Shown: one piece after another, positions 3,077-7,580 of the stretch | How the letters are laid out: every line of letters starts with the position of its first letter | How positions within the stretch are numbered: the first letter of the stretch is position 1 | DNA from: Chloroflexota bacterium | Lineage (GTDB): Bacteria; Chloroflexota; Anaerolineae; Anaerolineales; Villigracilaceae | Length of the DNA: 11,109 bases | Reading direction: 5' to 3' | NCBI GenBank assembly: GCA_021796315.1 | Contig: JAJYOH010000146.1 | Location: 1-11,109, forward strand | Program-made: the position numbers and the translations under genes | The notes under the pieces: model-generated | Databases searched by the model: none | The model's input: the letters and a program-made list of their open reading frames with translations, nothing else | What the model was told of the DNA's origin: nothing

Positions 3077-3152
3077 TCTTTTCAATAAAGCGGTGTGTGT
3101 GGGCGGGTTCGCCCGCAAAACACCCCACTTCCCCCTTCTTTTTGAGGAGATA
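3077..3152 (+). repeat. Dispersed palindromic repeat, copy A
   Basis: This 76-base segment is related along its whole length to 4893-4972 in the same orientation. It begins tcttttcaataaagcgg, has a GC-rich centre (here gcggg-ttcg-cccgc), then aaaacacccca, a C-run, and ends tttttgaggagata. Copy A has lost part of the left stem, so its hairpin is weaker than that of copy B. It lies just past the 3' end of infA and next to a small hairpin, tttcgct-gtca-agcgaaa (3053-3070). It is non-coding; the peptide read from the minus strand is conserved between copies only because the DNA is. Confidence 0.65.
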
Positions 3153-3653: not shown

Positions 3654-3826
3654 TTAAGATTCACCTCCTTCCAAGTGTAGAATGAGTAAATAAAAAAACT
3701 CAGCCGATATACAGACTCGGCTGAGGGACGTGTAAGAAAAGAATAAGCAAGAAGACCCTACGATCAAAACGCTTCACACTCCTCGAATTGTCAACCAGAG
3801 AAATAAATCTCTCAACCGAACCAGCG
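3654..3826 (-). promoter_or_regulatory. rpsU-infA leader with mutually exclusive pairings
   Basis: The leader of about 170 nt runs from the predicted start of transcription to the rpsU ATG. The segment tcggttgag (3819 down to 3811, minus strand) is nearly identical to the 3' arm of the leader terminator. It can therefore pair over all nine positions (one G-U) with the terminator's 5' arm ctcagccga (3725 down to 3717), which would prevent termination. Part of that segment is also in a small local hairpin (agaga/tctct, 3797-3812), giving a possible three-way switch. No leader peptide with a ribosome binding site is visible, so the signal may be a protein (bS21 itself is an obvious guess) or another RNA-binding factor. 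This is an inference from complementarity only. Confidence 0.5.
3691..3725 (-). terminator. Intrinsic terminator inside the rpsU leader (attenuator)
   Basis: On the minus strand ctcagccga (3725 down to 3717) and tcggctgag (3707 down to 3699) form a perfect 9-bp stem with a 9-base loop, followed directly by seven T (complement of 3698-3692). This is a textbook intrinsic terminator. It lies after the rpsU promoter and about 20 bases before the rpsU ribosome binding site, so it can only be an attenuator of rpsU-infA or the end of a short leader RNA. Confidence 0.8.
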
Positions 3827-3832
3827 GACGAG

Positions 3833-3861
3833 ATTATACACGATTCAAGAAAGATTGCACA
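3833..3861 (-). promoter_or_regulatory. Probable sigma-70-type promoter of rpsU-infA
   Basis: A perfect TATAAT (-10) is read on the minus strand from 3838 to 3833, preceded directly by TG. The hexamer 17 bases upstream, tgtgca (3861 down to 3856), is a weak -35. Transcription would start near 3826. The position, upstream of the leader hairpins, fits a promoter for rpsU. Confidence 0.55.
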
Positions 3862-4085: not shown

Positions 4086-4889
4086 ATGGCATTACGCGGC
4101 AATCTACGCGATTTCACAATTACCCAGTTGCTGAACCTGATCAATCTGGCGCAGAAGACCGGCACGCTGATCGTGGACGGGCCGACCGAGCAGGCGCATG
4201 TCTCTTTCCGCGACGGAAAGCTGGCTTATGCGCGCATCGGCAGGGAAGATGGCGGCCTGGCCTCGGTATTACATAGAGACAATAAACTTAACGCCAACCA
4301 GTATCGCACCATCTCCGAACGCGCCGGAAATATTTCGGATAAGGAACTCGGACTCCTGTTGATCAACGCCGGTTATGTTTCACAGGAAGACATTCTGCTC
4401 GATCTGCAGACTTATTTTACGGATATCATCCGCCGCCTCTTTACCTGGGTGGAGGGCTTCTTCCGTTTCGAGAACGATATCCTGCCCCCCGAAGACCGCA
4501 TCAATGTGCGGCTCGACCTTGAAAACATCATCATCGAAGGCTCGCGTCAACTGCGTGAGTGGGAACAACTGCAGGACGAAATCCCCAGCCTCGACCTGGC
4601 GCTCAAGTTTACCGCCCGCCCGATAACCAATCTTAGTCTGAGCATCGAGGAATGGCGCGTGGTCAAATTTATTGACCCGAAAAACTCGATGAAACAGATC
4701 GCCGCCGCGACCAAGTTAAATAACATGGAAATCCGCCGCATCGTGTACGGACTGCTCCAGGCGGGCCTGGTTGAGATGATCCGCCCGCAGAGTCTTCGGA
4801 ATCATGACGCCAGGAATTATGCGCCGCGGGACAAGGAAGAGCAAAAGGACTTGATCAATAAATTGATCGGGCGCATTCAGAAGGTGTAA
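4086..4889 (+). CDS. DUF4388 (PATAN-type) signalling adaptor protein
   Basis: 267 residues. The first roughly 110 form a DUF4388/PATAN domain, recognised by its opening 'ALRGNLRDFTITQLLNLINLAQKTGTLIVDG' pattern and 'VSFRDGKLAYARIG'. A middle helical region follows (about 85-160, with 'LGLLLINAGYVSQEDI'). The C-terminal part (about 175-250) has a winged-helix look: 'SIEEWRVVKFIDPKNSMKQIAAATKLNNMEIRRIVYGLLQAGLVEMI', although no DNA binding is proved. DUF4388 proteins commonly lie beside small GTPases and receiver proteins and are thought to act as interaction adaptors. The start is fixed by the domain's usual first residues and GAGGAG just before ATG (spacing of only two bases). The gene is first in a plus-strand set with the GTPase 116 bases downstream, the gap being filled by a palindromic repeat. 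Confidence 0.85.
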   Translation: MALRGNLRDFTITQLLNLINLAQKTGTLIVDGPTEQAHVSFRDGKLAYARIGREDGGLASVLHRDNKLNANQYRTISERAGNISDKELGLLLINAGYVSQEDILLDLQTYFTDIIRRLFTWVEGFFRFENDILPPEDRINVRLDLENIIIEGSRQLREWEQLQDEIPSLDLALKFTARPITNLSLSIEEWRVVKFIDPKNSMKQIAAATKLNNMEIRRIVYGLLQAGLVEMIRPQSLRNHDARNYAPRDKEEQKDLINKLIGRIQKV

Positions 4890-4892
4890 ACA

Positions 4893-4972
4893 TCTTTTCA
4901 ATAAAGCGGGGTGTTTTGGGCGGACGAAGCCCGCCCAAAACACCCCATTTCCCCCATCTTTTTGAGAAGATA
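4893..4972 (+). repeat. Dispersed palindromic repeat, copy B (16-bp perfect hairpin)
   Basis: ggggtgttttgggcgg (4908-4923) pairs exactly with 4931-4946 around a 7-base loop, giving one of the strongest hairpins in the window. An outer imperfect arm (tcttttcaa against ttgagaaga) extends it. The whole 80-base unit matches 3077-3152 in the same orientation. It starts three bases after the DUF4388 stop and ends about 20 bases before the ribosome binding site of the GTPase gene. No T-run directly follows the stem, so it is not a classic terminator. It may protect the upstream mRNA end or dampen read-through. Confidence 0.75.
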
Positions 4973-7460: not shown

Positions 7461-7481
7461 TACAGCCATTCAACCAAATAG

Positions 7482-7566
7482 AACGGGGAGCCTGTGTACA
7501 GGCTGAGAGGAGCGTATCGCGCTCGACCCGCAATACCTGATCTGGTTCATACCAGCGGAGGGAACA
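7482..7566 (+). promoter_or_regulatory. TPP riboswitch (THI element)
   Basis: The conserved blocks occur in order: cggggagcc, ggctgagag (7501-7509), the variable P3 arm, gaccc, atacctgatctgg, and ccagcggagggaaca (7552-7566). This matches the thiamine pyrophosphate aptamer closely, including the CUGAGA loop that binds the pyrimidine and the GCGGAGGGA segment that closes the core. It precedes a terminator and the thiamine pyrophosphokinase gene, so TPP binding should reduce operon expression. Confidence 0.97.
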
Positions 7567-7580
7567 TAGTCTTAACACTG

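Follow-up and report, generated by a model that had tools for sequence, protein, structure and literature searches.

The rpsU-infA locus and its leader

The window analysed here, a stretch of 11,109 nt from a Chloroflexota bacterium (contig JAJYOH010000146.1), carries on its minus strand a gene pair formed by rpsU (3653-3453), which encodes the 66 aa ribosomal protein bS21 (PF01165, E 9.1e-13), and infA (3435-3184), which encodes the 83 aa translation initiation factor IF-1 (PF01176, E 2.9e-25). On the upstream side of rpsU lies a divergently oriented DUF4388 gene (4086-4889). The bS21 protein of the window is identical to that of L001, a groundwater Chloroflexi MAG, while the DNA of the two loci differs.

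The rpsU promoter has a TATAAT -10 box (3838-3833), preceded after a 17-nt spacer by a weak -35-like TGTGCA (3861-3856), and transcription would start near 3826. An initial annotation of this DNA had described three segments in the leader that follows, and their coordinates proved to be exact: segment 1 (TCGGTTGAG, 3819-3811), segment 2 (CTCAGCCGA, 3725-3717) and segment 3 (TCGGCTGAG, 3707-3699), all on the minus strand. Segments 2 and 3 can pair without a mismatch into a 9-bp hairpin, the loop of which measures 9 nt (3716-3708). Seven T follow (3698-3692), and this predicted intrinsic terminator (3725-3692) sits between the TATAAT (3838) and rpsU (3653). As the gene at 4086-4889 is divergent, the hairpin does not belong to its 3' end. 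A search for hairpins with nine Watson-Crick pairs, a loop of 3-12 nt and at least seven T in eight returned just this one in the whole window, and it is a hairpin for which a segment-1-like partner is present; none of 100 dinucleotide shuffles of the window contained even the hairpin. It is not listed by a standard terminator scan of the window, the loop maximum of which is 8.

Segment 1 can pair with segment 2 over nine positions, one of them G-U, as had been annotated; however, the putative antiterminator strand extends beyond segment 1, which makes up just the inner part. This 5' strand (3825-3811) consists of segment 1 and an outer extension, and it pairs with 3725-3711, that is with segment 2, which doubles as the 5' arm of the terminator, and with the terminator loop nucleotides 3716-3711, which are contacted by the outer part. 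The duplex has a calculated energy of -17.2 kcal/mol in the window. Judged from the position of the TATAAT box, the antiterminator strand would be the very 5' end of the RNA.

The antiterminator closes a three-way junction containing a hairpin P1 (3812-3808 paired with 3801-3797), an unpaired, Shine-Dalgarno-like AGGAG (3783-3779) in the P1-P2 junction, and a hairpin P2/P3 (3773-3746; P2, 3773-3770 with 3749-3746; P3, 3765-3762 with 3757-3754). P1 folds in the window and overlaps segment 1 by two bases, so the earlier description of segment 1 as partly held in a small hairpin of its own was right. The extended Shine-Dalgarno sequence of rpsU, AAGGAGGTGA (3670-3661), agrees exactly over 10 nt with the complement of the 16S rRNA 3' end.

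Conservation and distribution of the leader

Scanning genome contigs with bS21 yielded 179 relatives, and the best 80, labelled Chloroflexi, Chloroflexota or subgroups of these, were used together with the window (81 loci, L001-L080 being the relatives). These loci contain 88 copies of rpsU, starting with TTG (38), ATG (25) or GTG (25), and infA lies within 150 nt behind 87 of them; the sole exception, L029, is at a contig end. The leader can be recognized by eye in most of the best 80 relatives, and in Anaerolineales it is conserved between a TATAAT box and rpsU. The segments are thus conserved, and the lack of conservation that the initial annotation had named as its refuting case was not what we found.

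For a first alignment 53 of the 81 loci were chosen by eye (28 were excluded, among them five without a -10 box), and 51 of these leaders, L029 and L078 being omitted, form alignment A1. The larger alignment A3 draws on 76 sources (the window, 58 of L001-L080 and 17 later loci) with 72 distinct leaders; 22 of L001-L080, later loci taken as repeats and the weak matches L160-L170 were left out. The rows of both alignments were selected for the presence of the leader.

A covariance model, R1, was used on whole genomes with a cut-off of E 0.01 or better; only the best 8-21 candidates per genome were scored under strict filters, and the counts are therefore lower bounds. Matches were obtained in at least 11 of 298 genomes of the class, at least 72 of 400 of the order and at least 85 of 152 of one family. 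Within the family, 85 of the 87 matches share the strand of rpsU and precede it by 24-123 nt; the remaining two are G642:C21 and G599:C103, and in the stretch examined around the latter no recognizable bS21 was found. A conserved structured RNA therefore stands consistently upstream of one ribosomal-protein gene, as is expected of a ribosomal-protein leader. By eye, the family list contains every one of the 11 matches from the class and 71 of the 72 from the order (the exception is G651, E 0.006), which makes the leader essentially an element of one family. The gene itself is more widespread, bS21 being present in 260 of the 298 class genomes and in 124 of the 152 family genomes; 84 of these 124 have an R1 match and 40 have none in this strictly filtered search. 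No leader was seen by eye in the upstream regions of other class genomes (L129-L145), except for a resemblance in L132, which belongs to G169, itself a weak family match.

Seven loci (L007, L019, L035, L054, L056, L067 and L076) have two rpsU copies each, every one of them followed by infA, and an R1 match above 45 bits occurs at just one of the copies. In the upstream copy the leader is degraded or absent, and a 5S rRNA signature precedes this copy in most of the loci. Among eight main-group copies with no or a poor leader, five have a terminator score below 14, versus 10 of the 79 other copies, a number that includes divergent leaders; copy 1 of L007, with a good terminator and a degraded antiterminator, is a counterexample.

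We do not claim the same architecture for the divergent leaders. When pairing of the 5' end with the terminator was compared with mononucleotide shuffles in 19 of 20 such leaders (L032 had no terminator call, and L044 was not included), p was 0.003-0.04 in five (L046, L061, L062, L077, L079), 0.06-0.13 in six (L026, L049, L051, L065, L071, L073) and 0.24-0.86 in eight (L021, L031, L037, L041-L043, L070, L074). Ten divergent leaders (L041-L043, L046, L051, L061, L062, L070, L071 and L077), several of them from Anaerolineaceae by title, have GAGGUGA(U) where the main group has AGGAG, and their terminators differ from those of the main group.

Pairing, covariation and folding

A TATAAT box is found upstream of 71 of the 72 distinct leaders, mostly 12-14 nt ahead of segment 1. 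For duplex calculations transcripts were taken from 7 nt past this box, and the duplex tests thus cover 71 leaders, the remaining one having no -10 box. The predicted RNA 5' end has the consensus GCAG-n-UUCGGYUG, and its duplexes with segment 2 and the terminator loop have energies from -9.6 to -23.4 kcal/mol across the leaders. Shuffling the 5' strand weakens its pairing with segment 2 (the real strands have a mean z of -3.24), and in 59 of 71 leaders at most 5% of the shuffled strands were as good.

In a partner-swap test, strands were exchanged between leaders in 2000 permutations, using all 71 leaders and then the 56 and 34 that remained after clustering. For the whole antiterminator no permutation was as good as the true partners in any of the three runs (mean rank of the true partner 0.29-0.32), and the same was the case for the terminator (0.32-0.33); both results also hold with clustering at 75% identity. 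The outer helix likewise gave 0 of 2000 in all three runs (mean rank 0.40-0.41), while the inner helix gave 0, 0 and 2 (0.47-0.48). As a control, the 5' strand was combined with the segment-3 side, and here 235, 422 and 310 permutations were as good. The whole antiterminator helix and the terminator thus show a strong effect, the outer helix a modest one and the inner helix a small one.

The initial annotation had suggested testing both pairings for covariation, and by partner swapping we see it in both. Column counts in A3 bear it out for the terminator, where 42 cells are changed on both sides, compared with 20.4 in shuffles (0 of 500 as high), and where no shuffle of 500 reaches the real covariation score, although a count of six pairs out of nine with two-sided changes does not exceed what shuffles give (228 of 500). 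In the inner antiterminator helix, taken by itself, the column counts do not clearly show it: 81.3% of the cells of the segment 1-segment 2 helix are paired and double changes occur at four pairs, but 132 of 500 column shuffles do as well on paired cells, 470 on double-change pairs and 19 on the covariation score, and counts on A1 are similar. Segment 1 varies little, which is why this helix is not clearly above chance in column shuffles. Taken alone, the A3 column counts speak against a strong claim of antiterminator covariation.

The pair list shows what the swap test picks up. In the outer helix GCAG pairs with CUGC or CUGU in many leaders, and rarer exchanges are AUAG:CUAU (L066), UAAG:CUUA (L099, L106) and GCAA:UUGC (L078); the outer helix would also explain why UCUG is conserved in the terminator loop. 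In a subclade (L011-L014, L153, L155) the terminator is shifted downstream to a CUCUGC/GCAGAG stem, and the outer helix still covers part of the terminator 5' arm. The (U)GCAG of the RNA 5' end still pairs with CUGC(A) in these leaders, so that the two folds would continue to exclude each other with other bases, and in our view this makes the best single case for antitermination. Together with the swap test and the pair list, it upholds the proposal that the alternative pairing is mutually exclusive with the terminator and has been maintained.

Within the junction, all five aligned pairs of P1 have changed on both sides in A3, with 67.5% of the cells paired. P2 (95.5%) and P3 (98.8%) are nearly invariant, and because they hardly vary their pairing receives little support from covariation; the window and L001 have a changed P2 3' arm, with GCTT replacing CGTTTC. 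Taken jointly, P1, P2 and P3 exceed all 500 shuffles of A3 on all five measures. The AGGAG is present in 62 of the 72 leaders, and a further three have CGGAG and two AGGAA, five leaders not being scored. RNAalifold, given A1 without a structure, returned ten pairs with a weak consensus energy (-4.4), namely four of the segment 1-segment 2 helix, five of P3 and an isolated one; it did not return P1, P2 or the terminator from these 51 leaders.

The folding energy of the full leader of the window is moderately low (z -1.98, 8 of 200 shuffles as low), and that of the leader cut before segment 3 has a z of -1.28. The full leader folds as the terminator, and the RNA cut before segment 3 folds as the antiterminator. 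Among the best full-length folds of the 72 leaders the terminator core occurs in 37 and the antiterminator in 19, shifted terminators not being counted, while folding of prefixes gave the antiterminator in 68 of 72 best folds. Prefix folding was, however, dropped as proof that the antiterminator forms first: by a lax measure, pairing occurs in the cut RNA of 71 of 71 real leaders but also in 240 of 355 controls whose 5' strand had been shuffled, and the approach therefore says little.

Proposed mechanism and alternative explanations

Its anatomy and covariation make the leader very probably a transcription attenuator of the antiterminator/terminator type. The conservation and position of the leader and both pairings with their covariation come directly from the computations, and actual termination would be expected from them. 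According to the model that we propose, RNA polymerase would start near 3826, and the first 15 or so nucleotides of the RNA would pair with segment 2 and the adjoining loop nucleotides as soon as these emerge, closing the three-way junction around P1, the unpaired AGGAG and P2/P3. With the antiterminator in place no terminator could form and rpsU-infA would be read. Read-through is somewhat more likely than not to be the default state. If the 5' strand were barred from this pairing, segment 2 would fold with segment 3 and transcription would stop at the T7 tract.

Because the leader is so strictly associated with rpsU, the signal would most naturally be bS21 or a complex or subunit that contains it. 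The likeliest form may be free bS21, alone or with its neighbours of the 30S platform, acting on the AGGAG and the almost invariant P2/P3 core, which is a candidate ligand site. That bS21 is the ligand is a guess, one that may well be right but falls a little short of what we would call probable, and the sign of the response is likewise guessed: binding might favour termination, which would amount to negative feedback on bS21 and IF-1. As a whole, an attenuator leader with bS21-favoured termination is the explanation that we favour and think reasonably likely. The P2/P3 core was also considered as a 16S rRNA mimic pointing to bS21, and this was rejected: in a comparison at the sequence level, not in 3D, 76 cores scored no better against one family 16S gene (L173) than shuffled cores did (mean local score 10.33 and 10.40). 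An extended P1, in which the 5' strand pairs with the linker before the AGGAG, was rejected as a universal anti-antiterminator (2, 15 and 35 of 2000 permutations as good, 69 leaders), and it could conceivably have this role in some relatives.

A simpler reading takes the hairpin to be an ordinary terminator of an upstream RNA, often an rRNA operon, with rpsU transcribed by unregulated leaky read-through. A 5S rRNA 3' signature does occur 123-443 nt upstream of rpsU in 49 of the 81 loci, and Rfam confirmed 23S and 5S rRNA upstream in eight of 17 loci scanned. However, the other 32 loci lack this signature in up to 600 nt (less was available in five), and 18 of them, including the window, have a strong leader match (at least 89 bits). 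The almost universal TATAAT ahead of the leader and the divergent upstream gene of the window also argue against a hairpin that is simply the end of an upstream RNA, a case that the initial annotation had raised, and a plain terminator would need no antiterminator helix, let alone one that covaries in the swap test. We consider this reading very unlikely. Leader-peptide attenuation, with a ribosome on a short frame behind the AGGAG choosing the fold, appears just as improbable. The AGGAG is often followed by (G/A/T)TG AAG CGn, 47 of the 65 leaders scored have in the P3 stem a TGA that shares its frame with the AAG of AAGCG (seven more were not scored), more than the expected one in three, and in the window a TTG 11 nt behind GGAG opens a frame of 37 codons. 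All 47 in-frame leaders nevertheless share one spacing, 12 nt, which indicates that the frame follows from the geometry of the stem and not from conservation of a peptide; the remaining 18, including the window, have other spacings and are out of frame. Furthermore, about 1 nt separates GGAG from the (G/A/T)TG, a distance too short for initiation, and a start codon 4-12 nt past GGAG is present in just seven of 69 scored leaders, the window included. A conserved leader peptide (GTG AAG CGn ... TGA) was therefore rejected, no conserved translatable short frame having been found among the 65-69 leaders scored.

It is also conceivable that the two folds exist without any ligand, their role being in RNA stability or in holding partial termination at a fixed level. 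The wide variation of the fold balance among relatives would fit this, but conservation of the P2/P3 core goes far beyond that of P1, and probably far beyond what a passive spacer would need, and we think it unlikely that no ligand takes part. A similarly low probability is given to the possibility that the leader senses ribosomes and not free bS21, in that a 30S subunit with a free anti-Shine-Dalgarno sequence docks on the AGGAG and shifts the fold, the extended Shine-Dalgarno of rpsU adding a translational layer. The AGGAG mostly comes without a usable start codon, and 10 of 21 divergent leaders have GAGGUGA(U) as their best match. Moreover, 54 of the 88 rpsU copies have a 10-14-nt match to the complement of the 16S tail, whereas the 87 infA copies of the same loci reach at most 8 nt. 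Against this, the longest 16S-tail match in main-group leaders is 5-7 nt, and 5 nt is reached by 61% of shuffled leaders. GGA-rich sites, in addition, also bind proteins. In Flavobacterium, ribosomes free of bS21 are described as driving rpsU through an extended Shine-Dalgarno sequence (PMC9976891), which would speak for ribosome sensing; on the other side, Anaerolineae stand at 58 in what appears to be the per-cent-SD column of a table in PMC10783764, and on that figure a free anti-Shine-Dalgarno would be no special signal there. A specific version, an attenuator without an open reading frame in which the junction AGGAG on the nascent RNA is captured by 30S subunits whose 16S tail is free, such as those lacking bS21, and in which this contact, in place of a leader peptide or a free protein, sets antitermination of rpsU-infA, with the extended Shine-Dalgarno of rpsU as a second step, seems to us quite improbable.

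Relation to known systems

If it acts as an attenuator, the rpsU leader would mechanistically be of the kind known for B. subtilis rplJL and for infC-rpmI-rplT. In the latter operon infC encodes IF-3, and bL20 is thus combined with IF-3, whereas the operon in the window combines bS21 with IF-1. The likeness to the L20 attenuator of infC-rpmI-rplT, as it is cited in PMC4538822 and PMC10931766 (Choonee 2007), is that of an attenuated operon containing a ribosomal protein and an initiation factor.

The L10(L12)4 attenuator of rplJL, as described in PMC4538822, likewise has overlapping antiterminator and intrinsic terminator structures in the leader of a ribosomal-protein operon, and its 5' hairpin, which might serve as an anti-antiterminator, may be comparable with the weakly supported extended P1 described here. 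The two leaders differ in gene, protein and phylum. Furthermore, rplJL has a known kink-turn target and its leader peptide is translated (PMC4538822), whereas the rpsU leader has a candidate core proposed from its sequence and no conserved peptide was found in it; it also differs from rplJL in that its antiterminator strand is the predicted 5' end of the RNA.

Flavobacterium rpsU shares with the present system an unusually long Shine-Dalgarno sequence ahead of a bS21 gene. According to PMC9976891, such extended sequences measure 9-13 bp in Bacteroidia and are tied to autoregulation by ribosomes lacking bS21. The control described there is translational and works from a native leader of 25 nt, whereas here a conserved predicted attenuator precedes the extended Shine-Dalgarno; attenuation is not mentioned in the main text of that paper. 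The ribosomal leaders predicted by Eckert and Weinberg 2020 (PMC7247131) resemble the present one as covarying leaders upstream of a ribosomal-protein gene, and their main text contains no S21, rpsU, Chloroflex or Anaerolin; neither S21 nor rpsU occurs in the main texts of Weinberg 2010 and of a 2010 paper that we take to be by Naville and Gautheret. With Rfam 15, searched up to E 1, the window gave a TPP riboswitch and two matches below the gathering score, none of them in the rpsU leader, and 17 loci of relatives gave rRNA and one intron at the gathering score and nothing else. A bS21 attenuator or structured leader of this form was thus found neither in Rfam 15 nor in the parts of the literature that we searched, and to that extent the earlier remark that none had been described still stands.

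Should the leader work as proposed, two components of translation initiation would be controlled together by transcription attenuation in this lineage. It is a lineage with few cultured members. The alignment yields exact pairs to mutate and, with the AGGAG and P2/P3, a compact core for binding tests. As bS21 has been described as loosely bound and exchangeable among ribosomes (PMC10931766), the setting of its level would also bear on ribosome heterogeneity.

Other features of the window and of related loci

Elsewhere in the window, the TPP riboswitch (RF00059, 67.3 bits, E 8e-12) lies at 7474-7580 on the plus strand and opens a stretch with thiamin pyrophosphokinase and, judged from the translations alone, the binding protein and permease of an ABC transporter. 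A dispersed repeat is present in two copies (3077-3152 and 4893-4972) about 1.8 kb apart, with blocks of 37 and 27 nt that are 92% and 89% alike. The second copy includes a perfect 16-bp inverted repeat (4908-4923/4931-4946), and the element looks like a small repeated palindromic element. Among the relatives, a group I intron (RF00028, 64.4 bits) lies at 175-842 of L044, inside a 23S rRNA match upstream of rpsU, and many of the loci preceded by a 5S signature (for example L002, L006 and L012) show by eye, immediately ahead of the -10 box, an inverted repeat that encloses a TCTTTTCAT-like loop.
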